Source of the DNA: Tetrahymena thermophila SB210
Taxonomy: Eukaryota > Ciliophora > Oligohymenophorea > Hymenostomatida > Tetrahymenidae
Reading direction: 5' to 3'
Length of the DNA stretch: 64,000 nt
Assembly (NCBI RefSeq): GCF_000189635.1
Contig: NW_002476351.1
Coordinates: 62,001-126,000, forward strand
Shown here one piece after another: positions 2,474 through 48,842 of the stretch (its first letter is position 1; each line of letters opens with the position of its first letter). The notes under the pieces were generated by a model, which saw only the letters and a program-made list of their open reading frames with translations, had not been told where the DNA came from and did no database searches. A program made the translations under genes and the position numbers.

Positions 2474-3921
2474 TCATTATTTGTAAACTACCTCTTTTAT
2501 AATTCCAATAGCAACTATCGTATTCATGTCTCTTACTATGAATCTACCGAGAGGAGGGCATTGAGAAAATTTCTCTACAGAAAGAGGTTTAGTAGGTCTA
2601 ACTCTTACAACGGCAGCTTCTCCATTTTTAATGTAATCCGGTTTATTAGATATTTGTTATGCAGTTTTTCTTTCTACTTTTGATAATATGTCTATGAATT
2701 CGCAAGCAACAAAGGCTTAATGAATGCAAAACATAGGTCTATAGCCTCTTTTTATACTTCCTGGATGGTTTATAATTACCATTTCTGCATCAAAAGTTTC
2801 ACATTCTCTAGGTTGATTTTCTCCAGTGTATCCACAAATCGATCCCTTTGTTAAATCATTGAGATTTAAATTTTTAATGCTAAATCCTACATTTTCACCA
2901 CAAAAAGCTTCTTCCACTTACTTATTTTATATTTCAATTTATATGATGTCAAATTTGTTTTCGCTTTTACCTAGAAAAGGAGCAAAGCAGACAGTTCTAT
3001 TAGCTTTTAAAATTCCTTGTTCTACTTTACCAGTTATGACTTATGTGTCTTCTCCAACTAAGAAAGCATATGAAACGGGAAGTCTTAAGTCACCTTCATT
3101 TTATCTAGATACAGGCATCAAGTTATCCAAAGCTTATAAAAACGTAAAGCTGTTGTACCAAGGCATATTAGGACTTTTTTCAAGTAAGTTGTCACCTAAA
3201 AAAGCTGATATTGGAATAAATTTTATATTTTACAAGTTAAAATTTATTTTCTCGAACTGCTACTTAACTTCTTTTTTTATTTCATTAAATCTTTTTTGAC
3301 AAAAACTGTACTTGCTATCATCCATCTTGTTTATACACACAATCATCTATTTTAATTCACATAATTTAAATGATTAATTTATTTTATTAATCAATTGATT
3401 ATACTTGCTTTATTCCAAGGGCGTAGGAGTGCAAAATAAAATCCTTGGTTTAACCATCTTTTCCAAACCCTTTTTCAAATTCATCAGCAGCAGCACTTAT
3501 CATTAAAACTGCCGCATCTGCCAAACAAATACCTGTCATCATATTTTTTGTATATTAAGTATCTCCAGGAGTATCAATAATTGTGATCTAGAATTTATCA
3601 GTTTCAAAATGAAATATCGACGTATCAATAGACTATTTGCGCTATCTTTCTACCTTTTTAGTATCCATTATATATGAGTAATTGATACCATCTTATCCTA
3701 TTAATATTAAAAGCTAATATCATTTACGATGATTTCATATCAAAAAACAATACAATTTTACCTTCTTCTTCACAAGCCTACTTAACCTCTTTTAATTTTT
3801 GATCATTTACTTATCCTAATTGTATAGCTAAATGGCCACACATAGTTGATTTTCCAGATCCTATATTACCTATAACTGCTAATGTAATTCTTTCTTTTTT
3901 TTATAAACCAATCTCTTACAT
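2474..3921 (-). CDS. divergent eEF1A-like translational GTPase
   Basis: Minus strand, ATG at 3921, TGA at 2476-2474. Two short GT...AG introns (3698-3761 and 3347-3404) must be removed; the spliced length is then exactly 442 codons, as in eEF1A. Visible motifs: G1 GNIGSGKST; G3 DTPGDTQYTKNM where eEF1A has DAPGHRDFIKNM; G4 NKMDD; G5 PISAFLGDN. Domains II and III follow (KVEQGILKANRTV; GENVGFSIKN; PPLGRFIVRDM near the C-terminus). Canonical eEF1A carries aminoacyl-tRNA to the ribosome. Here the catalytic G3 His is Asp, the switch-I RGIT is replaced by a KQSI-like segment, and the P-loop Asp is Gly, so this is probably a specialised paralogue and not the housekeeping factor. An eRF3/HBS1-type role is possible, but no N-terminal extension is present. 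Confidence 0.88.
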
Positions 3922-4860: not shown

Positions 4861-6906
4861 ATGAATATTAAGTGTTATCATTTCTTACCAATTTTACTAA
4901 GCTTTATTTTTGGGATGTGGTATGTGCATTTCAAAAATAAAAACATAGAAATTCCTAATTTAGATCCTATTAAATATGAATTTGATTGGCTTAGACTTTA
5001 CAATTTGATGGAAGAAGATTATTTCAAACAGAATCAAATGAGTTTGAATTTTAGATATTTTTTGCCAAGGACTTACTTTTTTATTCCAAATCATATGAAG
5101 TAGTTCTATTAAGAGCCTTTATACAATGAGGATCTTTTAGATCCTGTTTATGGGTTAAATCAAACTTTTACAGAAAAAAAGATTCAATTTAGTTAAGCAA
5201 TAGGAAGAAATGTTTTAAAAAATTCTAGATTTTCTAGTTTTATGAAAAAATAATTAGATAACAATGGCTATGATATATTAATGTTTTAAAAGTAAGTAGA
5301 TTTGAATAAAAATATATTGTAAAATAATAGATTCTTAAAGGCTTTTTGTATTAACAACAAAATTTACTCCTCAATTGATGATAAAATAATAAATTAATTC
5401 TTTTAAAATGAAGATAGTGCTGTGCTAATAAATAGAATTCTTGAGATTCAAAAGTATTTAAGTAAATTTATAATAATGAAAAATAGGAGGTGCATTAATT
5501 TTAACATGTTCGAAATAGAAATACTATTTACTTAATAAGAAGGCAAATACAAAAGACCTTATGTTGATAATATTTTTAATGTTAAAAAGGTTTAAACAAA
5601 TAATATTGATATTTCTAAATTAGTAGAAATAAATATCAGTAAAAACTACATTCAAAATGATACAAAGTATAAAATATTTAGTTATGATTATGACTTTCGA
5701 TTAAAAAGAATTATCCATTAATGTGTTAGCAACTATAAATATCATTACCAATGGATAAAATAATAAGCAGATCTTCTTTATTTAGAGCCTATTTGTGATC
5801 AAAATAGTAATAAATTAGCTGAGGTAAATAAAATATATAGACGCTCTGATATATTGCTAATGAAAAAGCTTGATAGATTCATTTTAATTTAAAATTTAAC
5901 TATTTACAATTTTTTGATGAATTCAGATATTGTGAATAATAAACTTCATTTTTATTAAATTGCTCATCAGCTAGATTAAGAAAATCGCAAATATGACTTT
6001 TCACTTTCTAAATTTCTCCCAAAGACATATGCATTTAATTTAAGTAGCAATAATTATACCTAATAAGAAGAGGAATTTATGAACTTATTGGAAAGCGAAA
6101 TGTGGATTAGCAAGCCACTAGATCAATTGGGAGGAAAAGGAATTAAAGTTTATTAAAATTCAAGCCAAATTAAGGAGCATATAAAAAAAATAAAACAAGA
6201 GAGTACAAATTAAACAGAAGAAGATCAGTAAGTAATAGTCTAAAGATATATTTAAAATCCACTTTTGGTCAATAAGAAAAAATTTGATATTCGCTCTTAT
6301 GTAATTGTTGTCTCTACTGATCCATACATAGTTTACTTCCTCAATGGCTACGTAAGACTGACAATAAATGATTACAATAAAAATGACACAGATCTTTTAA
6401 CACATTTAGTGAATACAAATATTCAGAAAAAACATCCTTAATTTAATTCAAAAAAAGATGATTCACATTGGGAGCTACATAAATTTGAGTCTGCCTTGAA
6501 ATAATAATATAATATGACAGACGAAGATATTCAAATTAAAATTTATAATCAAATGAAAAAAGCAAGTGCTTACCTTTTTAAAGGATTAGAATAGTATTTT
6601 AATGTATTTACAGCTAATTTCTAAATATTTGGACTGGATTTCATGTTTGATGAAGATTTTAATCAATATTTTATAGAAGTTAATGAAATTCCTTAATTAC
6701 TTGGTTAGACTTCAACACATAGAAATGTATGTCCAGAAATAGTCTCATAATAACTTGATAGTAGTCTTTATGCAAATGGCTAAATATTGAAAGGTGAAGA
6801 AATTGATATGAAAGTTCTCCAAAATAAATGCAAGAATTGTGACTTGCTTATCAACTAAGAACAAATATTCTATGTAAATGAAATTAATGCTAAAAAAAAG
6901 GATTGA
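4861..6906 (+). CDS. tubulin-tyrosine-ligase-like protein with N-terminal membrane anchor
   Basis: A single 681-codon frame from ATG 4861 to TGA 6904-6906 with many in-frame TAA/TAG. The TTL-family ATP-grasp core is in the C-terminal half: FLPKTYAFNL, then WISKPLDQLGGKGIKVY (about residue 414), VQRYIQNPLLVNKKKFDIRSYV (about 460), GLDFMFDED (about 591) and FIEVNEIP (about 606). These carry the Lys, Asp/Arg and Glu/Asn positions that bind ATP and Mg. Family members ligate Tyr, Glu or Gly to tubulin or other proteins. Unusually, residues 5-24 form a hydrophobic segment (ending FIFGMWYVHF) that would act as a signal anchor, so the enzyme may face a membrane compartment. The amino-acid specificity cannot be told from sequence alone. 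Confidence 0.9.
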
Positions 6907-9900: not shown

Positions 9901-10168
9901 AGATACTTGATAAGTTAGAAAATATTTTAAATAAATAAAAATATTTCTGCAATATTTTAAAGACAGACTAAGCTTTTTTCCATAATTTATTTTGTTTTTT
10001 ACTCAAAAGTGAGTTAAGAAGAAAGTAGAATTTTATAAACGCGGACATATAAACAAACGAAATTAAAATTTCAATGAATAAGATTTAATAAATATTTGAA
10101 ATTGTATAGATTCTTTGCATTAAATTAGTAATTAATTAAATCTAAATAAATTAATAAAATCTCAAATT
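6907..10168. other. gene-poor A+T-rich spacer (3.3 kb)
   Basis: No frame shows family similarity or sustained coding-like composition. Long TGA-free runs occur by chance in such A+T-rich DNA. The only defined structure is a two-copy 36-bp tandem repeat at 9692-9763. A slightly GC-richer patch at 8318-8350 is unassigned. Confidence 0.5.
9692..9763. repeat. two-copy 36-bp tandem duplication
   Basis: TAAATACTGATCTTATAATT begins at 9692 and again at 9728. The 36-bp copies differ at two positions. They lie about 400 bp upstream of the cysteine protease start. Confidence 0.9.
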
Positions 10169-11203
10169 ATGCCTTCAAAAATTTTAACTTTATTTACCTT
10201 ATTTATTCTTGGATTTGCTTGCTGCTAACAAAGTAACTCATCTGGATCTGTTACTGACCTTGTTAACGCTCTTACTACTTACAATTTATGGAAAAAAACA
10301 CATAATGTTAAATATGAAGATTCTTCTATAGAGGCTTATAGAAAAGCTATCTTCCTTGATAACCACAATAAAATTATTGAACATAATTCTGATCCTAGTC
10401 ATTCATACACATTAGGTCACAATCACTTATCTGATATGACTCATGAAGAATTCTCTTTATATTAGCTTAATCCTGCAAGAACTGCTTCAAAATCATCTAA
10501 AGGAGGAAATAACTCTGGAAACTCCAGTGGTTCAAGCAACCCATATGTTGACCCTCCTATTACTACTAAAAATGCTCCACCTATGGATTGGAGAAACGCA
10601 AGCGCTATTACCCCTGTTAAATAACAAGGTAAATGTGGTTCTTGTTGGACATTTGCATCTACTGCCGTTTTAGAATCTTTCAGTTTCATTAAGAATGGAG
10701 CACCTTTAACTAACTTCTCTGAATAACAAATCCTTGATTGTGTTTATGGAAGTGGTTATTATTCTAATGGATGCAATGGTGGTTTTGGTAGTGAAGCATT
10801 AAATTATGCAATTTAAAATGGTATTGCTCCTTTAAGCTAATATCCTTATGTAGGTAAATAACAAGGATGCAAGTATAATTCTACTAGCAATCGTTATTAT
10901 CCTAAATAGGTATCTTATATTATAGCAACTCCTTACAATATGATAAAAGCCTTATGGAAGGCTCCTATCGGAGTAGTAGTAGATGCTACTAAATGGTAAT
11001 TTTATAGATCAGGAGTCTTCAATTCATGTGATAATAACAATGTTAATTTGAATCATGAAGTCTTATTAGTAGGATATGACGCTAATCATAACTGGATCAT
11101 CAAAAATTCTTGGGGTGTTGGTTGGGGCTAATAAGGTTACATAACTCTCGCTGCTGGTGATTCTTGTGGTATAGCAGATCAACCATATGGTTTATCAGCT
11201 TGA
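10169..11203 (+). CDS. papain-like (C1A) cysteine protease, secreted or lysosomal
   Basis: One 345-codon frame from ATG 10169 to TGA 11201-11203. Residues 1-19 (MPSKILTLFTLFILGFACC) form a signal peptide. The pro-region has an ERFNIN-like helix (EAYRKAIFLDNHNKIIEHN) and HNHLSDMTHEEF, typical of the I29 inhibitor propeptide. The mature enzyme begins near APPMDWRN. Catalytic residues are all visible: oxyanion Gln153 and Cys159 in QGKCGSCWTF, His296 in LNHEVLLVGYD and Asn313 in IIKNSWGVGWG. Disulfide-forming Cys in CNGG and DSCGIADQP are kept. A Ser/Gly/Asn-rich linker (about residues 110-125) separates the pro- and mature parts. Expected role: proteolysis in phagolysosomes or outside the cell. 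Everything needed for activity appears intact. Confidence 0.95.
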
Positions 11204-12385
11204 AAATATCTAATAAAATAATTATAAATAATTTATAATAAAGGTATTACACTTTATATGTTACATTAGCTTTAAATTTATTATCATTTCTTTAAAGTTT
11301 AAATAACTAAAAATTAAATTTTTAAATAAATATTAAATTCTTTTTTCTATGTATGTAATCAATAATTAAGAGTGTTTGTTTTTGAAAAATATTTTTTATA
11401 CAATGTAATATAATGAAAGTAAATGACATTATAAGGTTTTTTTTAAAGGGCTGTTTATCTCGTTTTTAAATCTCAATACTACCTAATACTATTATTATTA
11501 AATCGAAATATAAAGAATCGAGCATTTTTCCTGCTTTCAAAGCTAATATGGCGTATGTTTTATTTAAAATTATTAGGTAAGACCATATATCGTATTTAAA
11601 AACCATATATATGGTCGGTCCCTAGTTTATTAATATAATTTGTAAAAAGCAAACAAAAAAAATTAAAATTTATATTTTTAAATTTAAATCTAATATCTTT
11701 TTTTGTTAAATTATGATTGGATTATCTAATAATTTAAAAATTAAATAATTTTAAAAATATTCATATAACACAAAATAAAATTTTAATATGACCTCATGCA
11801 GTATTTAAAATTATTAGGTATGACTATTAAAATTTTGATGATTTTTGGTAAAATCCGAGGGTTGGTTTAAGAGGTATTAATTTATTTATTTAAGTAAATT
11901 TAATTTTAAATTTTTGTATTTTTATAAGATACTTTTTAACTTAAAAGGATATGATATTCATAAGTATAAAAACAATAATAAATTTTATCTATATTTTAGG
12001 TTAAATTATCCTATTTCAAAATATTTTTTAATAAAACATATTATATTCTATCATTTAAATATTTCATATTTATTCATACTTTTTTCACTATTAGTTTATT
12101 ATCATTAGAATTTTATTTCGAAGACTACTAATCTTTTTGATTTAATACACTTGCTTTTTACTTTCAATTATTATTATGATTCATTGACTTAGTTTTCACT
12201 TTTATTATAAATAAGAGTAAATCACTTAAAAAATATTAAATAAAATAAATTTTTTAATTAAAAATAATGTTAGCAGAATAAATAGTATTAAGAAAAATAA
12301 ATCAAATAAATTAAAAGAGCTTTATTGCTTTAAATTCATTTTATAATTTAAAACATCACAAACAAAAAAAGCAAATTCTTTTTAC
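11204..12385. other. intergenic, with short hairpin
   Basis: Spacer between the protease stop and the 3' side of the LRR array. It holds a short inverted repeat at 11581-11616. A minus-strand reading from about 12240 down could supply the last exon of the LRR gene: AAG at a possible acceptor, then some 20 codons ending in TGA. That is only a guess. Confidence 0.45.
11581..11616. repeat. 10-bp inverted repeat (hairpin)
   Basis: GACCATATAT at 11581-11590 is perfectly complementary to ATATATGGTC at 11607-11616 with a 16-nt loop, followed by a GC-rich ggtccc. Nearby 'aaattattaggta' occurs at about 11566 and again near 11809, suggesting an old element remnant. Function unknown. Confidence 0.6.
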
Positions 12386-13271
12386 CAAAGGTGAAGTTTC
12401 AAATTTGAGAGATTAGTACAATTTGTTAACGCAGAACCTAAGTCTGAAGCACCAATTGCATTAATTTAACTATCACTTTTAAATATTGTAGAAAAAATAT
12501 ATTATTAATTATCTATTTAGAGGGAAAAAATGAAGAAAATATATAAAATAATAAGAAATTAATTAATTAATAAATTAAAAATAAATAAATAAGTTAAAAT
12601 AACAAAGAAAGAAGTAGAAAAAAAGCAAACACAATAAAAAGAAAAAATAAATTAAATTAAATAAAAAGCTATCAAATAAATTAAAATAGCTTTTTTTAAA
12701 TGCATTTTTAAAATTATAAATATCACATTACAAAATAATTTAACTAATTTTACCTAAGATAAAGTGTTAAATTTAATATATTATTGCAATTTGCTAAAGT
12801 AGAACCTAGACCTGATGCACCTTCGTCACCAATTTAATTACCACTGTTTAAAGATTGAAGAAAAAATAATTTAATTAATTAAATAGTTAGTTAGTTAGTT
12901 AGAAGATGGAAAAAACGAAGAAAAATATTGAAAAATAAGAAATTAAATAATTAACAATAAAAGCAAAAGTTGAAAATAAAAAAATGAGTTAAATTAACAA
13001 AAATGAAGAAGAAAAAGCTAGCACTATAAAAATAAAAAGTAAATTAAATCAAATAAAAGATATATTATAAATTAAAAGGGCTTTTATGTTTTAAATTTAT
13101 TTTTATTATTAAAAACAAACACCACAATGTAAAACAAATAAATTGTTTTTACTCAAGACTAAGTGTCAAATTTGAGAGATTAGTGCAATTTGCTGCAAAA
13201 CCTAAGCCTGATGCACCAATTGCACCAATTTAATTGTTACTTTTTAAATTTTGAAGAAAAAATATAGTTAA

Positions 13272-13319
<48 letters not shown>

Positions 13320-16300
13320 AAGGAAAAAAGGAATAAAAATAAGAAAATAATAAGAAATGAACTAAATAATAATAAAAGCAAAAGTTAAAAATAAAAATGA
13401 GTAAAATTAACAAAGAAAGATGAAAATAAATCAAGTATAATAAAAAGAAAAAGAAAAAAAATAAATCAAATAAAAAGCTATCAAAAAAATTAAAAGAGCT
13501 TTATTGTTTTGAGTTCATTTTTATAATTAAAAATTTCACAACAATCTAAAACAAATATATTGCTTTTACTCAAGAATAAGTGTCAAATTTGAGAGATTAG
13601 TGCTATTTGCTAAAGCAGAGCCTAAACCTTATGCACCTTTGTCACCAATTTGAGAAGGGCTAAGCGGCTCGAGTGGGCGAGTCGGAGGGTCTTAGCAGTG
13701 ATATCGGGGGTTCGAATCCTATACCGCCCCCTTTATTTCGAAAAATTCCATGTAAAAATGTGAATGTTACCAGCGGTCTCCTTGGTAGGAGGGAAGGGCC
13801 AAATCTGATAGGAGGTAAAGAAGAGGCCCCATTCTGAACAGAAGATCTGGAATACAAATGGGAAGCGAGCATAATGCGTAGTCAAATCATGGAAGATTAG
13901 TAGAAATGCCATTAGGGTGTAGGTGACCCTTCCCTTCTAGTATATTATCCACAATTATATATAAATAAATTGGTATACGTATAATAATAATGTATAAGTA
14001 ATTATATATAGGGCCCCTATCCCGAGTGCATGTCACCATGTGCGAGTATGTATGTATGTCACCAATTTGATTGCAACTTTTTAAATTTAGTAGAAAAATA
14101 TATAATTAATTAGTTACAGGGAAAAAATGAAGAAAAAAATATAAAATTAATTATAAGAAATTAATTAATTAATAATAAAAGTATAAGTTGAAAATAATAA
14201 AATCATTTAAATTAACAAAAAAAGAAGAAAAAACAAACAATTATATTAAAAAGAAAAAAAAAACAAATCAAATAAATAAATAAAGAGCTGTATTATCTTT
14301 TAAATTAATATTTATAGTAGAACATATTGCAGACCAAAACAAATAAACTTTTTTTACACAAGGTAAAGTGTCAAATTTGAAATTTTAGTGCAATTTGCTA
14401 AAGCAGAACCTAAGCTTGATGCGCCTTCGTCACCAATTTAATTATCACTTTTTAAATATTGAAGAAAAAATATATAATTAATTAGTTAGTTAGTTCGATA
14501 GTTACTTATAAGGAAAAAATGAAGAAAAAATATCAAATAATATGTAATTAATTAATAATAATAAAAATAGTTGAAAAAAAATGAGTTAAATTAACAAATA
14601 AAGAGCAAAAAAAATCAAGTACAATAAAAAGAAAAAGAAAAAATAAATAAATTAAAAGATATAATATAAATGAAAAGAGTATTATTATTTTAAATTAATT
14701 TTTATAATTTAAAATATTGTAATCCAAAACAAATAAACAGTTTTTACTAAAGTTCAAGCCTCAAATTTGAGATATTTGTGCAATTTATTAAAGCTGAACC
14801 TAATTCTGATGCACCTTAGTCACCAATTTAATTGCAACTTTTTAAATATTGAAGAAAAAATATATTGTTAATTATTTAGTTAGAAGGAAAAAATGAAGAA
14901 AAAATATGAAATAAAAAAGCAAAAGTTGAAAATAAAAAAATGAGTTAATTTAACAAAGAGAGAAGGAAAAATAAGAAAGCACAATAAAAATAAGAAGATA
15001 AATAAATTAAATAAAAAGCTATCAAATAGATTAAATGAGCTTTCTTGTTTTAAATTAATTTTTAATAATTAAAAATATCAGAATCGAAAATAAATAAACT
15101 GTTAGTACTCAAGAATTAGTGTTAAATTTTAGAGATTAATGAGTTAGTTAGATGGAAAAAGAAATTAAAAAAAGTATGAAATAATAAGAAATGAGCTAAT
15201 TAATAATGAATATAAAAGTAGAAATAAAAAAATGAGTTAAATAAACAACAAAGAAGAAAAAAAATGAAGTTAAATAAAAAGAAAAGAAAAATAAATCAAA
15301 TAAAAAACTATTAAATAAATTAAAAGATCTTTTTTATTTTAAATATATTTTTATAATTAAAAATATCACAATCATAAACTAATAAACTGTTTTTACTAAA
15401 GTTTAAGTGTCAAAGTTGAGAGATTAGTGCAATTTGCTAAAGCAGTACCTAAGCCTTATGCACCTTCCTCACCAATTTAATTGTTACTTTTTAATAATTT
15501 AAGAAAAAATATATAATTAATTAATTAGTTAGTTAGTTAAAATCAAAAAATGAAGAAATAAAATAAGAAACAATTAATAGATGAAAATAAAGAAATGATT
15601 TAAATTAACAAAAAAAAAAGAAGAGAAAATAATCAAGAAAAATAAAAAAAATAAATCAAACAAATTAAATAATTTTTATTGTTTTAAATTAATTTTTATA
15701 ACTAAAAATATCACAATCCAAAACAAATTAATTGTTTTTACTTAAGACTGAGTGTCAAATTTGAAAAATTAGAGCAATTTGTTGCAAAACTTAAGCCTGA
15801 TGCACCAATTGCACCAATTTAATTGTCACTTTTTAAATATTGAAGAAAAAATATAGCTAATTAGTTAGTTAGAAGGAAATAATAAGAAATTAATTAATAA
15901 TAAAAGTAAAAAGTGAAATTGAAAAAATGAGTAAAATTAACAAAGAAAGAAAGAAAAAAATCAAGGATGATAAATAGAAAAATAAATCAAATAAAAATCT
16001 ATTATATAAATTAAATGAGCCTTACTATTTTTAATTCATTTTTATAATTAAAAATATCTCAATTCAAAACTAATAAATTATTTTTACTCAAGAATAAGTG
16101 TCAAACTTGAGAGATTACTGCAATTTGCTAAAGCAGAACCTAAATTTTATGCACCTTTGTCACCAATTTAATTGCAACTTTTTAAATATTATAGAAAAAA
16201 AATTATAATCAATTAGTTAGTTAATTTAAAGGAAAAAATGAAGAAATAATATGAAATACTCTAAATCCTCATATATTAAGGCCCCCCCCCCTTCCCCTAT

Positions 16301-18639
16301 ACACTTTTAACATATTGTTTTACAAATTTCAAAAAATCAAAAATCGGCCTTAATTAAAAGTGTCTTAATATATGAGGATTTAGAGTAATAAGAAATGAGT
16401 TAATAAATAATAAAAGCAAAAACTGAAAATAAAAAATGGGGAGGGGTGGGTGGAAATCTGTGTTTACTAAAAAACAAATGGAATTTTTATTAAAAAATGT
16501 ATCTACTCTCCCTCAAGTCCAAAAATCAAGGATTTTCACACCATCCCTACTCCAAAAAATGAGCAAATTATGAAAGAAAGAAGAAAAAAAGTAAGCACAA
16601 TAAAATTAAAAATAAATCAAATAAAAAGCCATCAAATTAATTTACAGAGCTTTAATGTTTTAAATTAATTTTTCTAATTAAAAATATCACAATCCAAAAC
16701 AACTTAACTATTTTTACCTAAGGTAAAGAGTCAAATTTAAGAGATTAGCGCAATTTGCTAAAACAGACCTTAAGCCTAATGTACCTTCATCACCAATTTA
16801 ATTGAAACTTTTTAAGTATTGAAGAAAAAATATTTAATGAATTAATAACTTGTTAGAGGGTAAAAATGAAGAAAAAATATGAAATAATAAGAAATTAATT
16901 AATTAAAAATAAAATTTGAAAATAAAGAAATGAGTTAAGTTAACAAAGGAAGAAGAAAAAAAATCAAGCAGATTAAAAAAAAAAAATTCAAATAAATTAA
17001 AAGAGCCTTTTTGTTTTCAATTTATTTTTATGATTAAAAATATCACTACCCAAAACAAATAAACTTTTTTACTAAAGTTCAAGTATCAAATTTTAGAGAT
17101 TAGTGCAATTTGCTATAGCAGAGATTAAGCTTGATGCACCAATTGCACCAATTTAATTGAAACTTTTTAAATATTGAAGAAAAAATATATCATTAATTAA
17201 TTAGTTAGTTAGAAGGAAAAAGAAAAAAAATATAAAATAATAAGAAATAAACTAATTAATAATAAAAGCAAAATTTGAAAATAAAATATGAGTTAAATTA
17301 ACAAAAAAAGAAGAAGAAAAATCAAGCAAAATAAAAAGAAAATAAATCAAATAAAAAGCTATCAAATAAATTAAAAGAGCTTAATAGTTTTAAATTCATT
17401 TTAATAATTAAAAATATCACAGTCCAAAACAAATAAGTTATTTTTACTCAAGGTAAAGTGCTAAATTTGAGAGATTAATGAATTTTGCAATAGCAAAAGC
17501 TAAACCTTATGCACCCTCATTACCAATTTAATTGTCACTTTTTAAATATCGAAGAAAAAATAAAAAATTATTTAGTTAGTTTGAAAGAAAAAATTTGAAA
17601 TATTAAGAAATGAATTAATTAGTAAAAAAGTAAAAGTTGAAAGTTAAAAATGAATTAAATTAATAAAAACATAAAAAAAAAGCACAATAAAAAAACAAAA
17701 TAAAATTCAAATAAAAAGCTATCACAATTAAAAGAGCTTTGTTGTTTTAAATTAATTTTTACAATTAAAAATATCACAATCCATAACAAACAAAGTTTTT
17801 ATTACCCAAGCCTAAGTGTGAAACTTGAGAGATTAGTGCAATTTGCTAAAGCAGAACCTAAGCCTGATGCACCTTCGTCGCCAATTTAGTTGCAGCTTTT
17901 TAAATATTCAAGAAAAAAAATGTAATAAATAAATTAATTAGAATGAAAAAAAAAGAAAAAAATATGAAAAATAATAAATGAATTAATTAGTAAGAAAAGC
18001 AAAAAGTTGAAAATAAAAAAATGAGTTAAATTAACAAAGAATGAAGAAAAAATAATCAAGAATAATAAAAAGAAAAATAAATCAAATAAATAAAAAATTT
18101 TATTGTTTTAAATTAATTTTTATAATTAAAATATCACAATTCAAAACAAATAAACTGTTTTACTCAATTATAAGTGTCAAATTTGAGAGATTTGTGCAAT
18201 TTGCTAAAGCAGAACCTAAGCCTTATACACCAATTGCACCAATTTAATTGCCACTTTGTAAATATTGAAGAAAAAAATAAATTTAATTATTTTGTAAAAG
18301 GAAAAAATAAAGGAAGAAAAATATGAAATAATAAGAAATGAATTAATTAGTAATAAATGCAAAAATTAATTGAAAATAAAAAAATGAGTTAAATTTACAA
18401 AGAAATAAGAAAAAAAAATAAAGTAAATTAAAAGAAAAAGAAGAATAAATCAAATAAAAAATTATCTTTATTAAAAGTGCTTTATCTTTTAAAATTTATT
18501 TTTATAATTAAATACATCACTATCCAAAATATTAATAAAATGTTTTTACCGAAGTCTTAGTGATAAATTTGAGAGATTAGTGCAATTTTCTAAAGCAAAA
18601 CCTAATTATGATGCTCCAATTGCACCAATTTAATTGCCA
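12386..18639 (-). CDS. leucine-rich-repeat protein built of tandem 90-nt exons (ends undefined)
   Basis: On the minus strand each ~370-bp unit holds one exon bounded by A/T-rich AAAG| and |GTAAAAAC splice signals. Exons on plus coordinates: 18550-18639, 18164-18253, 17806-17895, 17448-17537, 17073-17162, 16718-16807, 16088-16177, 15742-15828, 15397-15486, 14748-14837, 14358-14447, 13153-13239, 12754-12843, 12386-12475. All are 90 or 87 nt, begin and end in the same phase (1), and have no TGA in frame. Joined, they give a 29-30-residue RNI-type leucine-rich repeat: core NQIGDEGASGLGSALANC followed by TNLSNLTL. This resembles the LRR half of ciliate LRR/kinase-type proteins, which bind partners. 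One further unit (from 13570) is split by an insertion and one (15119-15140) is truncated. I cannot find a certain first exon or stop, so it may be a partly decayed gene. Confidence 0.7.
13272..13319. repeat. (TTAG)12 microsatellite inside an array intron
   Basis: Twelve perfect TTAG units. Every array unit has the same tract at this place with 1-12 copies, so it is an unstable part of the intron. It is not the ciliate telomere repeat (GGGGTT). Confidence 0.9.
13654..14056 (+). mobile_element. SINE-like insertion with tRNA-derived head
   Basis: About 403 bp of conspicuously GC-richer DNA interrupts an LRR exon. It is flanked by a perfect 14-bp duplication, TGTCACCAATTTGA (13640-13653 and 14057-14070); removing one copy plus the insert restores a normal unit length (788 minus 417 = 371 bp). 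A pol III B-box-like GGTTCGAATCC lies at 13709-13719 and an A-box-like CGGCTCGAGTGG at 13665-13676, spaced as in a tRNA. The 3' end is a short TATG repeat. These are hallmarks of retroposition by a LINE machinery. The tRNA-like part does not fold into a proper acceptor stem, so it is not a working tRNA. No convincing protein is encoded. An assembly contaminant is unlikely given the duplication. Confidence 0.75.
16259..16385. mobile_element. 127-bp MITE with perfect 22-bp inverted ends, TA duplication
   Basis: The left end CTCTAAATCCTC...TATTAAG (16259-16280) is a perfect inverse of the right end (16364-16385). The element is flanked by TA on both sides (16257-16258, 16386-16387), and the uninterrupted array units read gaaataataag at this place, so one TA was duplicated. 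TA duplication plus short inverted ends is the signature of Tc1/mariner-type MITEs. Inside are a run of ten C and a second inverted pair (acacttttaa / ttaaaagtgt). It lies in an intron of the LRR array and encodes nothing. Confidence 0.88.
16439..16553. mobile_element. 115-bp insertion with 8-bp duplication and imperfect inverted ends
   Basis: Flanked by AAAAAATG at 16431-16438 and 16554-16561; other array units have a single aaaaaatgagttaaa here. The ends GGGAGGGGTGGGTGGAAATC and the complement of GATTTTCACACCATCCCTAC form an imperfect inverted repeat. An 8-bp duplication fits a hAT-like non-autonomous element, but the duplicated octamer is A-rich and so less decisive. Removing this and the 127-bp MITE gives a normal 378-bp unit spacing. 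Confidence 0.65.
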
Positions 18640-20701
18640 CTTTGTAAATATTGATGAAAAAATATATATTTAATTAGTTAGTTAGAAAGAAAAAATGAAG
18701 AAAATATATGAAATAATAATAAATTACCAATAAAAGCAAATGATGAAAATAAAAAATGAGTTAAATTAAAGAAAGAAGAAAAACATAAGCACAATAAATA
18801 GAAAAAGAAATATTAATATTATAAATTATAAGGGTTTTATTTTTTTAAATTAATTTTTATAATTAAAAAATAAAACAAATAAGCTGTTTTTATCAAGTAA
18901 AAATGTTGGTAGCAAAAAATGAAGAAAAAATATCAAATTATAAAAATGAATAATGAATGAAAAATAAATATTTAAAAATTAAAAATTAAAATTAATTTAA
19001 AATAAATAAAAAATATTTGTTTAGATAAAAATTAGTGGATTATGAAAATTTTAATTAGAAAAATTATATTATGAATAAATTCAAAGTTAAATAAATAAAA
19101 AATATAAATAATAATAATATTTATAAATTAAGCATACCTCATATCAATATCGAGAAATTAGTGAGATTTAAGTGAAGAGTTTTAAAACTTTTTTTATTAG
19201 TAAAAAAAATTTAAAGAATATTTATAAAATAATAAACAATTTACTTCCTCTAAGTTGTTGTAATATTTAATCTATTATATCATTTATTTTTTTTTTCAAA
19301 TATATTGAATAGCAATTTATTAAAATTTATGAATTATAAATGAATAAATGTAAAAATTAAATAATAATAATTATCATTATGGATTTATAAATTTGCTTTT
19401 AGGAAGAAAAATCATAAAAAAGTTAGTTTAGCATTCATAATTTAAGCTTAAAATTTCTATTTAAATTATTTACTTAAAAATATAGTAGGTATTAAAGATG
19501 TATATTGAGTCAGTCATATGTTGAAAAAATTATTGTTTCTTAAATTTTATTAAAAAGTTATATTTAAAAAAAGTTAGTCCATTTGATTTTGCCATACCTC
19601 TGTATATATTCCACTACCTTTTATTTTAATTAATTTTTGTAGAATGAATGAATAAATGAAGTTTATTATAAAATATATAAAAATATCTAATTTTTATTTT
19701 TATTTTTTTTGAGATATTTTTTTAATATTATAGATTTTTATTAACTAATTAATAGATTTTTGAGTTCTAAAATTATTATAAAGAAGCAATTTTTAATATT
19801 ATACATCTAAATTTTAATTTAATTACAGCTTTTAATATTTAACTTGATGCATTTTTATTGATTTTAAAATAATTTTAAGAAATAATAAAAATTTTAAAAT
19901 AGAAAATTAAAGAGAAATGGTAAAAAAGATTAGCTTAATTTGTTAAAATCCCTAGAATAAATTGAGTTAAAGTGAGCTTAAAATAGAATTCAAGGTTATA
20001 GAAGAGGGATTAAATTAAGTTATCTAAGTTAATATAGGTATATTAAATTCAAAATAAGGAGCAAGTGCAATGATAAGATGGCGATAAAAAAAAGTAATAA
20101 GAAACTAGTAAAGAAATATCCTTTAAAATTAGATGGAAATTTCCATGGAAATAATTAATAGAGTATTTTTAAGTTTTTTTGTACACTTCAGCAGAAAGAG
20201 TTAGATATATAGATAGATAGAGAGATAGATAGATAACAAAAGCACTTACGAAAGAAGATATATTATAAGTATTAATTGGTTTTGATAAATAGTAAAAATT
20301 AACAAATAAATTAATATTAGAGCTTGCTTATAGTAAATATAAATTAGTTCGCAAACAAATAAATGGAGTATTTAGCTCATTCATTTTATTAATAATAATA
20401 TTAAAGTAAATAAAAAAGTTTGTATTAAACCCAAAAGTAAAAAATCATCACAATTAAAAATAATTAAAAAAGAACAAGCACAATTATAATTGAATGCATA
20501 ATTAATTTATTGAAAGAAGATATTTATTTGTATTTTGTAATAATTTAGTTAATAATTAAATTCCAAAAAATAGAAAAAATCAATCAAAAAATCATTTATT
20601 TTTTTCAATTAAATACTAATACAAATAAAAAGAGTGTGTGTGTATTTAAGATTTAAGTATAGATAAACCTTCCATAAAGATACCAAAAAAAAGAAGCGTC
20701 A
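18640..20701. other. intergenic, array edge and possible upstream LRR exon
   Basis: A degenerate array remnant lies at 18889-18960. On the minus strand around 19880-20060 a stretch reads LGILTNQANLFYHF, faintly like the LRR pattern LGxxLxNxxNL, but no splice sites or start can be fixed. A short imperfect GATA-type run (agatagatagagagatagat) is near 20210. Nothing else is supported. Confidence 0.4.
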
Positions 20702-40975: not shown

Positions 40976-43900
40976 TCAACTTTAATCTTAGTCTGTTTTC
41001 TCTAAAGCCTTCATATCTAAAAAATTATCATAGGCTTCAATCCATTCATCTTCTGAATCTTTATAAATTTTTCTTTAACCCTCTAAAATCCATTTAGAAA
41101 TATGTTAATTTATATTTGTTTCTAGACTGTATTAAGAATCTAAGAAGAAAATACAACCCCAATCATCTTTGTAACGTATGCATCTTCCTGCAGATTAATT
41201 GACTACTTTAACTGCATCTTTCTAATACCATTGACTTTCTCCCAAATAAAGCTAAGCATGGGTTTTTTTACATATTATATAAGGGTCTGAAAGATTTGCA
41301 TAAGGGACACCAAAAAGAATTACTGCTCTACATAAATTGTCTTTTAGATCTATACCTTCAGAGAGCTTACCTCTATTAACAGCCAAGAATATGCAATTAG
41401 ATTTATTCTACTAGATAGATTACTTATAAGAACTATATTATATTTTAAAATCATTTGCATCTCTTTTTTCTTCAAAAAACTTAAAATCTGCATTTTTTGT
41501 CATATTTATCATATATTTGTATTATTAAAGCATTTAATAACTTTTGAAAAATATGACTATTCCACATTTTTCTTTGACCTGTTGACTATACCTATTAAGT
41601 TTTGACATTATTTTATTTAAAACGATTTGAGAATTTTGAAATATTTTATTTTTGTTTTTTTCTTTTTTCAGTGCATTCATACTAAAGCAGATATCTTGCC
41701 CATCACAAGAACTTATAAATTAGGTAAAAAGATTTGACTATGAATGTATTATGTGAGGCGATGTGTAAGTTTAAAATTCTAAACCTAAAGATTTTTAAAT
41801 TAACTCAAATGGTTCAAGTGTACCTGAAGTAAGTATTAAGGAACTAATATCGATCTTTTTATAAATTTTTTTAAATAGGTATGATGCTGATAGACAACCT
41901 ATTTGTAAGATTGGTATGAATTATTATTCTTCTATTCTTAAAAGAGAAATATAATGGTTAGATAAATAGAGAGGATCTTCTTAAGAACCATGTAATTTTC
42001 TCATTTTTAATAATTTATAGAAAAAATGCCAAATCTTAGAAAAATAGCTAATTTCAATTTATTCACCTAGTTTTTTAATATTGTTTTTGTAATTTATATT
42101 TAATTCATAGATTTCATTATTATTTTCTTTTACTATGATATTTTCACCTTAAATATCTTTATTTTATTAATCTTTTTATTCTATATCCTCTTCAGTATTT
42201 ATTTTTATTACTTTCTTTATATATAAAATGATTTTAAATACTTTTTCTAAATTACCCAGAAATTTTTAAGCTGAATCAACATCATTAACTTTAAGTTATT
42301 CAAACTATTTTACTATTTCTTTGTCAGAAAAGAGTTTACAAAATTGTTGAATCTATGATTTATTATTTTAATCAAATATCTTTTCAAGAAATCCACATTT
42401 TTCTTTAATTGTTAAAAAAAGATTTTAAAAATTATCAAGAAAATAGTAGACCTCCTTTATTCTTTATTCTTAATAAAGCTTGAAGATACTTTCAACATCT
42501 ATTTAGCTTTTGTTTATATTTGAGTCTTTTATGTAATTTTATATTTATTATAAACATTATGGAGAATCATCCGAAACTTAAGAACTTTAATTAATTGTTG
42601 ATAATGCTAAATCATACAAATCTTTAGAGGAAAATAAAATGTTCTAATTAAATTTTCTTTTATATAATTTTTATTCAGTATTAACTGCATAGGAGTTGTA
42701 TTTAGCATGTTTGTACTTTTGTAAAAATTTTTCTTCATCTTCATCATTATCATAATCAGCCTCACCATTTTTATCTTGAATATCACTTTTATCTTTTCGA
42801 AATTTTAAATAAGATTAAATAATTTAAATTAAAATTTTACTTTGTTTTTACTTATCAGCTCTTTTAAGAAGTTATTCCTTTAAAAAAAGAGATTCCTATT
42901 TAATATCTAGTTAAATCAATGCTCTAATATCTTAACCTACTTGAAGCATCTCATTTCTTTGAGGTTTTTAAAAAATTTTTTAAACCTTTTCAAGTGTATT
43001 ATTGAATTATTCAAAATATTTATTACTCATTTTAATAATTTATTCTTATTCAGCTTGCTCAGAAACATTATGTGCTTCATCAAATATTACTATAACTTTA
43101 CCTTTAAAAAGATTTTAAATACTTGCTAGAATATTTTGCTTAATGACATAATTATAAGTAGAAAAAACTAATTTAGCATTTTATGTTGCTAGCTTGTTGA
43201 AATAAAATGGGCATCCTAAATTTTTTTACTAAAATAATTTCTTCATATCTTCTATATCAGGCAAAGTATAAGCTTAATCAGAAGCTGAGCGAACTTATGG
43301 GAAGTGTAAATTCATTTTTATAGTTTCTTTTTCCTTCTTCTCTTTTATTTATTAGTAAATCCTATAATGAGGGCACATATAACAGTTTTTTTCCTGTTAA
43401 TCTTAATCTTATTTATTTTAACTAGATCTCTAATTAATATCCACTTATTTATATCTTTAAAAAATACTAAAAGGTTCATCTATATCATCATTAGAAGCTG
43501 CTATTATAGATGTTTTGCACTTTCCACAATTGCAATTTAATTTTTGTTTCATTAAATTGCAAATCTTACTAAGATTTTTATTGTATTTAGATTTTCTGGT
43601 ACCTAGCATTTAAATTTGTGACTTAATTTTATCTATATTCAAGCAAAATGAACCTCTTCCAGCTAAGATAGAGTATCTACTAATATCTGCATAATTTCGA
43701 ATTTTCCTAATTTCTTTAATAAAACCATTTATTTATTCATTTGTTCTAGTTAAAACAAATACCTAAACATTAGGATTTATTATAGCATAAGCAAGAGCAG
43801 AGCAAATAGTTACTAGAGTCTTACCGGTGCCTGTCGGAGATTAAAATAGCAGATTTTTTTTCTCACACAAAGATTTGATAATACTTTTCATGCTTTCAAT

Positions 43901-44101
43901 CTAAATTGAATAAGGCTCAGGATATGGAAATATTTATAGGCAGATCTCAAGTATATTTTGCTAAATATCTTTTTCAGCATCCATTTATTGATTATTATCT
44001 TATTCTTTTTCTTGTTCATAAACTATTTTATGTTTACTTTTTTTAGGGCTTTTTAATTTTTCATCTTTCTCATCATCCTATTTTGCAAATTCTAGTTCCA
44101 T
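40976..44101 (-). CDS. RAD3/XPD-superfamily DEAH helicase (DDX11/CHL1-like), copy A
   Basis: One unbroken 1,042-codon frame on the minus strand, no introns. N-terminus is Lys/Glu/Asp-rich; then the Q-motif-like region FPYPEPYSIQIESMKSI, Walker A SPTGTGKTLVTICSALAYA (about residues 86-104), VFVLTRTNEQ, a Cys-containing stretch that should ligate a 4Fe-4S cluster (FCLNIDKI, then CNCGKC, then CYMCPHYR), DEAH in VIFDEAHNVSEQAE (about 341), LTSGTLEPF, NRGKLSEGIDLKDNLCRAVI and motif VI NQSAGRCIRYKDDWG (about 967). These enzymes are 5'-3' DNA helicases in chromosome cohesion and repair. DDX11/CHL1 fits the Q-motif best; FANCJ or RTEL1 cannot be excluded. Immediately downstream of a close paralogue in the same orientation. 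Confidence 0.92.
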
Positions 44102-44867: not shown

Positions 44868-47798
44868 TCAAAAATTTTATTTTTAGAAATACTCTTAAGC
44901 TTTATTTGATAAAAATTCAGAGTAATGTTAAGTCCATTCATCAGTTTATTTCACTTTTGCTTTTTGGCCATCTAAAATCCATTTTGATATATGTTTATAT
45001 ATATTGCTTTCTGAGTAATATTAAGAGTCTAAGAAAAAAATGCAACCCCAATCATCTTTGTAGCGGATACATCTTCCTGCAGATTAGTTGACAACCTTCA
45101 CAGTCTCTTTTTTATACCATTGTTCTTCCTTTAAATAAAGCTTTGCATGAGTTCTTTTACAAACTACATATGGATCTGTAAAGCATGGATATGGAACTCC
45201 GAAAAGGATAACTACTCTGCATAAATTATCTTTTAAATCAATACCTTCAGAGAGTTTACCCCTATTTACAGCTAAGAAAACACAATTAGTTCGATTATTT
45301 TGAATAAGCTACTTATATTAGCTATAGATTTCTTTAAATTCATTCGCATCTCTTGTTTCTACAAAGTATCGAAAGTCATTAGATTAATAATTTTTAATCA
45401 AAAAGTAGTATTGTTAAAGCATTGAATAACTCTTGAAGAAAATAACCATTCCCCCTTTTTATTTTACTTGATTAGTATACTCATTAAATTTATTTGTAAT
45501 AAAGTGAATTGCTAACTAAGAATGATAAAAAATATTATTTTTATTATCTTCATTTTCAAGTTTTTTCATACTGAAGGAAATCTCTTAATCATTGTAGTGG
45601 CTAATAAATTAAGTAAAAAGATTTGTCTACGAATTAATTATATGAGGAGAGGAATATGTTTAAAATTCTAAATCTAAAGATTTCTATATTAACTCAAATG
45701 GTTCTAGTGTACCTGAAGTCAGTATTAAAGAACTTATTTTTAGCTTTTTATAAATTTTTTTAAAAAGATATGAAGCTGATAGACAACCTATTTATAAAAC
45801 GGGCACTAAAGAATATTCTCCTCTAAGAAGTGAAATATAATGGTTTGATAAATAAATAGGGTCTTCTGAGTAATTATACATCTTTCTCAGTTTTATTAGT
45901 CTATAGAAAAAGAACCATATTTTTTATATATATTTCAGCTTAAGTTGCTCTCCGAATTTTTTTAAATTATTTAAATCATCTTAATTAGCTTCATATATTT
46001 AATTATTTTCGGCTACAAAAATATTGCGTTGAGCATCACTTTTACTTTTAGATTCTTTTTTTTCCTTTTCTGTGTAAACTCTAATCACTTTTTTTAAATA
46101 TTAGAGCATGGTAAACATTTTTGTTAACCTATCAATAAAATTTTCAGCTTGTTTAACGTCAACTACATTCAATAATTAAAATTATTTTGTAATTTCTTTA
46201 TCTGAAAAAAGACAGCAAAAAGGTTTAACATCCTTTTAATTTTTTTCATCAAATATATATTAAATGTTCTCACAATCTTCTTTTATGCTTAAGAAGTGAC
46301 CCTGAAAATTGTTAAAAAAATCCAATATTTCTTTTCTTCTTAAATCTTAATAAGATGCAAATGTACTTTCCATTTCAACAATTGTATAATCTTTATTTTA
46401 TTTAATATCTTTTATGTACTATTAAATTTGTTTAAGATTCTCATCCGAATTTTATGGTAATTCACCATTATTAAAAATTATTAAATTTATTTTATCATAA
46501 ATATCTTGAGAGGAAAACTGGATGTTTTAAATAAATTTCCTTTTTGATTGCTTTTAATCCTCCTGGGATACCTATTTAATGTATTTTACATGCTTAAATT
46601 TAGGAGAGACTTTTTCCACATCATCATCATCTTTATCATTTTGTTCTTGGCTAGAAGAATCTAAATCAGACTTATCACTCTCTGTATCTGTACTTTCACC
46701 CTCAACTATTTTTTTTTAGAGACTAGACATGAAATAATTAGCTTCTTCTTAAATATCTTTACAAATTATATCTTGAACATTTCGATAAAGATTATTTAGA
46801 TTTTAGCTAGAATAATTATTTTTGTTAAAAACTCTTTATACTTATTGAAGAGTAGTATCCAATTAATCCCAATATTTTTATTGCATTTTAGTACTTTATT
46901 CTTGCTCAGCTTACTCTGAAATATTATGAGCTTCATCAAAAATTACAACTACTTCACCTTCAAAGAGGTCTTTAATATTTCCTAATATATTCTATTTAAT
47001 AAGATAGTTGTATGTAGAAAAAACCAATTTAGCAGAGCGTGTTGCTAGTTTATTAAAATAAAATGGGCACCCTAACTCTTATTGTTCGAATAATTCCTTC
47101 ATGTCTTCAATATCAGGCAAATTATATTGTTGATTATAACCTTAACTTACAAATGGAAAATGTATATCCATTTTTAAATTTTCTTTCTACTTCTTTTTTA
47201 GAATCTTTTTGTAAATTTTGAAATGTGGGCAACATGTGCACCCTAGTTATTCCCTTTAATCTTAAAATACTCTTTGATTAATATTTACATATTTATTTTA
47301 TGCAAATAAGCTCAAATCAGGAGATTACATAGCTTTGTGGGTTTCACAATTAGTTCTTTTACATCTATCATTACATTCTTTAGTAAGATGTTTATTAAAT
47401 TTAGATTTTTTTATTCCTTGCTTTTCAAAATCTTTTTTAAAATCATCAAGATTTAAACAAAACTAATTTCTTCCAGCCAAAATAGAATACTTGCTTATCT
47501 TTGGATATTTATTAATTTTTCTTATTTCTTTTATAAAACCATTTATTTATTCATTAGTTCTTGTTAAAACTAATACCTAAACATTAGGATTCTTCTCAGC
47601 GTATGCAAGAGCAGAACAAATAGTTACAAGTGTTTTACCTGTTCCTGTTGGTGATTAAAATAGCAGATTTTATTTTTCGCATAGCGAATTTATAATATTT
47701 TTCATACATTCAATCTAGACAGAATAAGGTTAAGGATATGGAAAGATTTGCAAACAAATTTCGAGTATTTACTCTTTTATATCCTTTTCAATGTACAT
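44868..47798 (-). CDS. RAD3/XPD-superfamily DEAH helicase (DDX11/CHL1-like), copy B
   Basis: A single 977-codon frame, TGA 44870-44868, closely similar along its whole length to copy A. It lacks A's ~35-residue charged N-terminus: it starts MYIEKDIKEQILEICLQIFP. Walker A SPTGTGKT is near residue 45-52, the Fe-S cysteines are arranged differently (NQFCLNLDDF, ECNDRCKRTNC, CTCCPHFK), DEAH is in VIFDEAHNISEQAE (about 288), and motif VI NQSAGRCIRYKDDWG is near 903. A longer Asp/Glu/Ser acidic loop precedes helicase domain 2 relative to A. The tail after the common SQYY.E.NI..HISKWIL segment diverges completely from A. All motifs are intact, so both copies may be active; a recent tandem duplication with divergence is the simplest history. 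Confidence 0.92.
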
Positions 47799-48842
47799 TT
47801 ACTAATCTTAATTTTATTAGGCATTCATTTCATACCCAATTATTATTTTATCTTTCTTAACCTCATTTTATTACTCTTTATTTTATATTATTTGCTGACT
47901 TTATTCTACTTCCATAAATTACCTTTGTTAATATGTATTTTTGATAAATTTTTATTATTTTTTTAATTATTTATGAATAACTTTTATTAAAAATAAATTT
48001 TTAATTTAATTATTATTTCATAAAGATTTAGCAAGCAAGCTAAATAAGAAATTTTCTATTGCAAATTTAAAATTATGAAATATGAGCGGAAGGAAAGAAA
48101 GAATGAATAAATCTAATTTATTTCTGAGGATTTACTTTGAGATAAAATATATTTAATATATAAATCTCAAATAATTAAAACTAAGTTTTATTTTGCTATA
48201 ATGATTAATAACTTTATAATTGAAGTAGAAACAAACAGTAAAATAAAAAGTATTAATAAAAGACTTTTATTTTTTTAAACAATAACTAAAAGGAAAATTT
48301 ATTCTAAAATTCTTTTATTTTGATTTAAGCTTTTAAGTTTCACTAAAATTTGTCCATAGAACATTTAAAAATATTTTTCTTTTCAAAAACTAAATAATAA
48401 AATAAAGAGAAATTAAGAAGATTTTACATTTCTAAAAATAAAATAATTTTGTGAACAATCAACAAATATAAATTAAATTTGGTTGATACATGAATAAATC
48501 TTACATAAAAATTAATGTCGAATAGTGGTTAAATTATCATTCGATATTATAATTTTGATGAAATTGTTAGGTATGATGGCAGAGTTTAAATATAATAATA
48601 CATAATTGTTTAAAATAATTATTTTAAAGTCTTTAAAAAAGATTTCAAATATACTTCTTTTAACTAATATAAAACCCATTAAACACTAAAATATAATTTT
48701 ATTTAATATGATGTACCAAATTTAATTTAAAACAATTATCTATAATAGTCAAATTAATTTTTAAAAATAAATGAAGTACTCAATAAATAAATAAGTAAGT
48801 AATTAATTAATAATAAATAACTAATCGAAATAATAAATAATT
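47799..48842. other. intergenic
   Basis: Promoter side of helicase copy B and 3' side of the two-TM gene. Low-complexity A+T DNA only; short aataaataaataag run near 48783. Confidence 0.6.

Follow-up and report, generated by a model that had tools for sequence, protein, structure and literature searches.

The closest described relatives of the locus reported here are the leucine-rich repeat (LRR) genes made of 90-bp exons, of which Xiong et al. (2019, PLoS Biol, PMC6564038) described thousands in ten species, together with a phase-2 bias, ectopic recombination, an origin by exon shuffling and an association with the REP retrotransposon. Between genes, the same paper found purifying selection (Ka/Ks <1), and it names LRR introns as favoured REP targets, with REP remnants lying in the introns. 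Tt.REP itself is a retrotransposon without long terminal repeats (non-LTR), which carries open reading frames ORF1 and ORF2 and a 54-bp conserved tail, with 169 tail copies in the macronuclear (MAC) genome (Fillingham et al. 2004, via PMC6564038). Target-specific elements are also described in other settings, such as Utopia in U2 genes (PMC4640811), R2 in 28S rRNA genes (PMC7650587) and the Dada DNA transposons in tRNA and snRNA genes (PMC8869645). We analysed a 64,000-nucleotide stretch of Tetrahymena thermophila SB210 DNA (contig NW_002476351.1, positions 62,001 to 126,000 of the forward strand; hereafter the window), which holds a minus-strand LRR gene with a short retroposon inserted in one of its exons. 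With a probability of about 0.82, we read the locus as an LRR gene of phase-safe one-exon repeats, in which the concave face is under selection and the exons serve as target of a site-specific retroposon. The array architecture, which was the core idea of a first-pass annotation of this DNA, is already established in the literature (PMC6564038); what is added here is the exon-specific retroposon, which that annotation missed, and the binding-face signature of the host arrays.

The genome searched is a 101-Mb assembly of 445 contigs. Contig C4 has CCCCAA repeats at its start and the complementary repeat about 465 kb further on; these ends look like those of a somatic (MAC) chromosome, and the window lies in what appears to be the Tetrahymena somatic genome. 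All copy counts given below are those of the somatic genome, and germline copies could differ. The genetic code is that of ciliates, with TAA and TAG read as glutamine, and a single match to the ciliate telomerase RNA family, above the cut-off, was found in the genome.

Like the genes of PMC6564038, the family studied here has exactly 90-bp exons, phase-2 introns, tandem arrays, repeat numbers that differ between genes and an association with retroelements; it differs from them in that two of the 15 LRR exons of the window gene are 87 nt long. For comparison we used 12 sibling arrays from the same genome, hand-picked from the better DNA matches and not a random sample, whose flanks are similar in sequence to those of the window array. 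The gene model runs on the minus strand from 19283 to 12102 and has 18 exons, namely a start exon, a second exon, 15 LRR exons and a stop exon, with a predicted product of 509 residues; the joined frame stays open across all 509 codons, with neither an in-frame TGA nor a frameshift. Its parts are the following.

19245..19283, minus strand: exon 1, MIQQIKYYNNLEE, 39 nt, then GTAAAT (start motif, alignment of six siblings)
19138..19187, minus strand: exon 2, 50 nt, phase-2 end (sibling alignment)
18550..18639, minus strand: LRR exon 1, 90 nt
18164..18253, minus strand: LRR exon 2, 90 nt
17806..17895, minus strand: LRR exon 3, 90 nt
17448..17537, minus strand: LRR exon 4, 90 nt
17073..17162, minus strand: LRR exon 5, 90 nt
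16718..16807, minus strand: LRR exon 6, 90 nt
16088..16177, minus strand: LRR exon 7, 90 nt
15742..15828, minus strand: LRR exon 8, 87 nt
15397..15486, minus strand: LRR exon 9, 90 nt
15105..15141, minus strand: remnant of a lost LRR exon, 3' part only, within the 559-nt intron (by eye; weak profile match, E 0.0056)
14748..14837, minus strand: LRR exon 10, 90 nt
14358..14447, minus strand: LRR exon 11, 90 nt
13570..13659, minus strand: LRR exon 12, 90 nt if the element-supplied acceptor GCTTAG is used
13153..13239, minus strand: LRR exon 13, 87 nt
12754..12843, minus strand: LRR exon 14, 90 nt
12386..12475, minus strand: LRR exon 15, 90 nt
12102..12198, minus strand: last exon, 97 nt, ending ...LKVKSKCIKSKRLVVFEIKFQ then TGA (conserved in 11 siblings and the window)

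Bases 18639 and 12386 bound the first and last LRR exons, as in the first-pass annotation; they are not the ends of the gene, the two 5' exons and the stop exon lying outside. Fourteen LRR exons (12 of 90 nt, 2 of 87 nt) have their own AAG or CAG acceptor and GT donor and stand where that annotation had placed them, and to these is added a fifteenth (13659-13570), which is 90 nt long only via an acceptor inside the inserted element; the series thus holds 13 exons of 90 nt and two of 87 nt. LRR exons 1 to 7 are consecutive 90-nt exons, three or more in a row being one mark of this gene class. A second mark is the phase, and each LRR exon consists of 1 + 3n + 2 nt with phase-2 introns on either side; the symmetry claimed earlier stands, and the label "phase 1" given to it is the number of the annotation format (GFF), the usual name being phase 2. 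All 14 introns between LRR exons are GT-AG, while for the outer three introns GT-AG was a selection criterion when the model was built. The inter-LRR introns measure 255-330 nt, except for three of 540, 559 and 698 nt, which are enlarged by inserts or by a lost exon.

Because each exon encodes one repeat between phase-2 introns, gain, loss or damage of a unit keeps the reading frame. One unit of the array has its exon mostly deleted (remnant ~15141-15105) and is spliced over in the gene model with the frame kept, so that the frame-safe unit loss foreseen from the sequence is visible in this gene, and the proposed tandem duplication of a phase-symmetric one-exon, one-repeat unit is likewise supported. 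Multiplication of the units would proceed by unequal exchange, as published for the family (PMC6564038). The 39-nt start exon and the 50-nt second exon are suggested by the alignment of the flanks of six siblings and the window; the start motif lies upstream in 9 of the 13 arrays searched, window included, the exact motif being absent in four (L075, L077, L082 and L086). The 97-nt stop exon is a stretch conserved in the alignment of the window with 11 siblings, L080 being omitted as its contig ends there.

The coding frame is clean throughout. TGA is absent from the 447 complete LRR codons of the window gene, and among 181 exons of 90 nt (13 from the window array, 168 from the 12 sibling arrays) none has a TGA in the coding frame, versus 150 and 157 in the other two forward frames, a contrast beyond what chance would give; this bears out the earlier remark that no TGA falls in frame. 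In the siblings, 172 of the 174 array-strand exon matches are free of TGA, carry both splice sites and have a length that is a multiple of three, where an exon was scored as intact with an AG at most 12 nt from the expected start and a length from a set of multiples of three between 81 and 99; two extra weak matches on the opposite strand are without splice sites. The Pfam family LRR_6 matches the product with E 3e-30 (102 bits, cut-off 23.4), and the sequence matches in the PDB include RNA1/RanGAP, dynein-regulatory and radial-spoke LRR proteins. The genome holds at least 268 DNA matches to the LRR family, and with a 786-nt stretch of the array as query the matches listed, self excluded, are 69-83% identical. 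Similarity in nucleotides between arrays of one species marks the Group III subclass (young, consensus-masked), of which the array is a candidate at most. Patterns of the two exon types, with up to 2 mismatches, occur at 2000 sites (D-E type) and 1088 sites (A-M type), and the reversed-pattern control gives 0. Judged from its sequence, the locus looks like a complete Tetrahymena "90-bp exon" LRR gene with a predicted 509-residue solenoid of the ribonuclease-inhibitor (RNI) type, and the gene family probably encodes binding proteins. Sibling L080 (G000:C142:157800-161471) has five introns, 258-259 nt long, that are separated by no more than one substitution at equal length, plus the length of a one-base run, and six exons with differences at 3-13 of their 90 sites, solely at certain codons.

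The first-pass annotation had suggested a comparison of exon with intron divergence. Taken raw, the comparison does not favour selection, since the window array has a pN/pS (replacement to silent differences per site) of 0.85 (bootstrap 0.61-1.15; 15 exons) and a divergence of 0.22 in exons versus 0.19 in introns; the split by residue described below does. The exons of all 12 siblings are more diverged (0.074-0.194) than their introns (0.002-0.088), with pN/pS above 1 in each. As the introns are A+T-rich and changes at their G and C positions are roughly threefold more frequent than at A and T, the neutral expectation was rebuilt from the base-by-base changes of the introns, pooled by residue class with every codon kept. 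The divergence and selection counts omit the 87-nt exons, matches above E 1e-10 and matches on the opposite strand; in them, multi-base codon changes are counted more than once and duplicated copies are not independent. Residues 1, 26 and 28 were chosen as concave-strand positions from what we take to be the geometry of the LxL motif, and 6 of 3654 residue triples, this one included, are as variable; residues 3, 6 and 7 were grouped as "loop" after a first run had been viewed. The junction residue 30 is also among the most variable, with an entropy of 3.25 bits.

In the pooled siblings, 344 replacements are observed at residues 1, 26 and 28 for 56.4 expected (6.1-fold) and 345 for 50.2 at residues 3, 6 and 7 (6.9-fold), each excess being above 1 in 12 of 12 siblings, versus 41 for 90.0 (0.46) in the core and 245 for 300.8 elsewhere. 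The window array, with roughly threefold the divergence of the pooled siblings, has 40 replacements for 12.8 expected at residues 1, 26 and 28 (3.1-fold), 25 for 13.5 at residues 3, 6 and 7, 8 for 23.5 in the hydrophobic core and 48 for 81.1 elsewhere. The concave-face excess is thus present in each of the 13 arrays, and the core constraint in the window and 11 of the 12 siblings, which agrees with the binding-surface diversification proposed for this locus. An earlier result in which the window array lacked the binding-face excess (0.55 of neutral) was withdrawn, as codons without a majority base (residues 1, 6, 7 and 28) had been dropped. We infer that selection keeps the scaffold and favours change at the concave-strand residues in the window and the 12 siblings.

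Several counts speak against this reading. Silent changes in the siblings are raised at residues 1, 26 and 28 (50 for 17.4; 2.9-fold) and at residues 3, 6 and 7 (60 for 6.0; 9.9-fold); over all residues, in a run without majority-less codons, replacement and silent changes are raised alike (787 for 477 and 177 for 118); and the window totals are near neutral (121 replacements for 130.9, 39 silent changes for 34.3). The silent changes at the variable codons are raised because whole codons are swapped, and a few old codon cassettes exchanged locally could have produced the residue pattern, as could mutation bias combined with homogenisation of the introns. Such an origin would fit the faster change of G and C positions in introns, the near-identity of the L080 introns while its exons differ at certain codons, the silent excess at residues 3, 6 and 7, which is larger than that of replacements, and the way residues 6-7 switch among few forms (D-E, A-M, A-I). 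However, the expectation was already built on the base-by-base changes of the introns, silent changes stay near neutral off the variable codons (elsewhere 73 for 65.1, 1.12; core 27 for 35.9, 0.75) while core replacements fall to 0.46, and at residues 1, 26 and 28 the replacements exceed the silent changes in the pooled siblings and are in excess in every one of them; exchange free of selection should not pick exposed residues. We regard it as unlikely, if still of some weight, as an explanation of the pattern as a whole, and selection on the concave strand as preferable; the data on residues 6-7 are accounted for equally well by selection and by exchange of a few old cassettes.

The window array might also be a decaying pseudogene instead of a working gene, given its lost exon, the exon severed by a retroposon, its three enlarged introns and the near-neutral totals. 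Against this stand the start, the stop, the 14 GT-AG introns, the frame free of TGA and frameshifts, and a core with 8 replacements where 23.5 are expected, which make decay improbable compared with a working gene.

The exon in question, LRR exon 12, is split by an element inserted antisense to the gene.

13640..13653, plus strand: target-site duplication copy 1, TGTCACCAATTTGA (the leading TG could be tail repeat)
13654..14058, plus strand: retroposon resembling a short interspersed nuclear element (SINE), antisense to the gene, with (TATG)3 tail, splitting LRR exon 12
14057..14070, plus strand: target-site duplication copy 2

The element has a 390-nt body plus tail and 43% G+C in a region of ~16-23%. 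Its sequence finds 41 matches in the genome, and a search with the tail pattern (up to 2 mismatches allowed) finds 42 places, 41 of them exact and one with 1 mismatch, with none for the reversed control. All 42 tails, each of which was inspected, abut one and the same site of an LRR exon in one orientation, antisense to the exon. A script seeking the longest shared string found duplications of 12-14 nt in all 36 full-length copies, with 22 different strings, and three further copies (L058 and the 5'-truncated L059 and L060) have duplications recognised by eye. The 36 include L047 and L048, which look like one event and are counted as two. Exons of the A-M/A-I type host 2 of the 36 insertions (binomial P 3e-5, given 2000 versus 1088 sites). 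On average the bodies differ by 0.7% (p 0.007), versus 21.9% for the left and 20.5% for the right flanks, and the copies vary in tail length (2-21 TATG units) and in the number of bases at the 5' junction.

These ends distinguish between two histories of the copies. A single insertion in an LRR exon could have been copied along with the LRR units by unequal exchange, without any site specificity; LRR units are known to spread by ectopic recombination (PMC6564038), and L047 and L048, both on contig C50 with identical flanks, look like such a pair. Under this history it would be hard to account for left and right duplications that agree over 12-14 nt inside each of the 36 copies despite 22 strings, for near-identical bodies between flanks that differ by 20-22%, for variable tails and 5' junctions, or for truncated copies (L059, L060) that still have duplications, and we reject it as very improbable. 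Instead, independent and recent events of target-primed reverse transcription into a preferred sequence appear to have produced the insertions; their ends are observed, and the enzyme would be that of a partner element.

The nature of the element can be described in the same terms. It is short and non-autonomous, with a 390-nt body, 12-14 nt target duplications and a 3' tail of (TATG)2-21, as expected of a SINE, and it is too short for a reverse transcriptase or an endonuclease, as a site-specific long interspersed nuclear element (LINE) would need; at most, it is the client of a site-specific non-LTR retrotransposon. A 5'-truncated LINE would share the microsatellite tail, the 12-14 nt duplications and the truncation of some copies, but random truncation would scatter the 5' ends, and a common head opens 37 of the 41 copies with a readable 5' side (the shorter ones are L059, L060, L073 and L074), which leaves this origin quite doubtful. 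The head of the element contains, by eye, GGTTCGAATCC, which we take to be similar to a B box, part of the Pol III promoter that goes with the tRNA-, 5S- or 7SL-derived head of a SINE; a tRNA origin of the head was dropped, as the Rfam scan had no tRNA match and ARAGORN found no tRNA in the window. In L073 and L074 the 5' side is not LRR-exon DNA, and their shortened bodies are joined to other sequence, possibly at deletions or at an elimination boundary.

Some observations do not favour a site-specific, SINE-like retroposon. Three of the 42 copies have no readable duplication (L061, at a contig end, L073 and L074), the far flank of L059 departs from LRR sequence soon after the duplication, the Rfam scan gave no tRNA, 5S or 7SL match to the head up to E 1, and no LINE was recognised in the assembly, where the sole match to a reverse transcriptase domain (RVT_1) is L062 (G000:C134:182753-183433). 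To these is added the effect on splicing. The element carries, antisense and just before its 5' end, an acceptor (GCTTAG), which in the window would leave an exon of 90 nt; 14 of 36 copies would yield an exon of exactly 90 nt, and 17 one that stays in frame (P 0.06 versus one third). This is no proof of adaptation, and a frame-keeping acceptor was rejected as evidence of selection, 17 of 36 being not clearly above one third.

In the mechanism that we propose, the LRR exons themselves would be the landing pad of the short non-autonomous retroposon. A partner endonuclease would nick one bond, reverse transcription would start within the (TATG)n tail, and the outcome would be a 12-14 nt duplication, as the ends of the 42 copies suggest. 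The likely partner is the REP LINE, presumably for the most part eliminated from the somatic nucleus of the published species, and the nick expected of its endonuclease in an LRR exon would lie beside CCTTCA/TCACCAATTT. Insertion would place a new acceptor before the severed exon 12, which may then be spliced as a 90-nt exon or skipped in frame.

The intron between LRR exons 6 and 7 holds a further insertion, resembling a miniature inverted-repeat transposable element (MITE).

16257..16387, no strand assigned: MITE-like insert in an LRR intron, with 24-nt perfect terminal inverted repeats 83 nt apart

A search with the MITE stretch gave 42 matches, 32 of them confined to the first 43 bases or fewer (mostly LRR-intron flank), and the MITE itself is matched at 72-87% in a handful of places (C176, C207, C110 and C284). 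A second G+C-rich insert lies in the same intron at ~16430-16560, and its ends look loosely complementary (GGAGTAGGGATGGTG / CCACCCACCCCTCCCC). Elsewhere in the window there are an EF1A-like gene (2477-3496, minus strand), a tubulin-tyrosine-ligase-like gene (4861-6903, plus strand), a papain-family protease gene (10115-11200, plus strand) and two adjoining minus-strand DEAD_2/Helicase_C_2 helicase genes (40979-44101 and 44871-47915), the products of which are similar by eye, so that the two are probably a tandem duplicate. Two very long plus-strand open frames (53269-56877, 1203 residues, and 57384-62711, 1776 residues) have no Pfam match at E 0.001.

A wider interpretation, which we hold as tentative and at somewhat less than even odds, is that a protein-coding exon family is the only home of a retroposon lineage. 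A REP-type endonuclease would recognise the LRR exon, its SINE client would insert at one bond, the phase-symmetric arrays would tolerate the hits, and the binding-face residues would be under diversifying selection; the genes of the recognition repertoire and their dedicated retroelement would then coevolve, with the cuts feeding the exchange of units for new receptors. Should the two results added here hold, the retroposon would be a mobile element whose one target site lies in protein-coding exons and would give a precise handle on the unexplained association of REP with LRR genes. The residue counts would then provide within-array evidence that the LRR repertoires of Tetrahymena vary on the ligand-binding surface beyond the neutral expectation, and make the proposed recognition function directly testable.

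In the literature, the word "SINE" is absent from the available text of PMC6564038 and from the available passages of the germline-genome paper PMC5182062, "SINE" and "leucine" do not occur as whole words in PMC2612030, and the available passages of PMC13269885 and PMC12859917 hold no relevant content. The titles and abstract openings found for Tetrahymena or ciliate SINEs and target-specific elements, which leave most subscription papers uncovered, contain nothing comparable. The terms "positive selection", "hypervariable", "concave" and "diversifying" do not occur in the available text of PMC6564038, and the single paper listed in a literature search on positive selection, introns and leucine-rich repeats in Tetrahymena deals with a different topic.

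The protein resembles the RNI-type RanGAP/Rna1p (PDB 1yrg, 1k5d), with a sequence match over ~280 solenoid residues, but its repeats are far more uniform, and the likeness is one of sequence, which gives no indication of GTPase-activating (GAP) function. In contrast to the genes of PMC6564038, the element described here lies in exons and at one site, and the repeats within an array have an excess of replacements on the concave strand. Like Tt.REP, the element is found beside or within LRR units, but Tt.REP has ORF1 and ORF2, whereas the present element, with 390 nt plus tail, occurs whole in this assembly. Utopia, R2 and Dada likewise occupy one type of site within a multicopy gene family; the targets named for such elements are RNA genes and microsatellites, whereas the target here is a family of protein-coding exons, and the element that uses it is non-autonomous.

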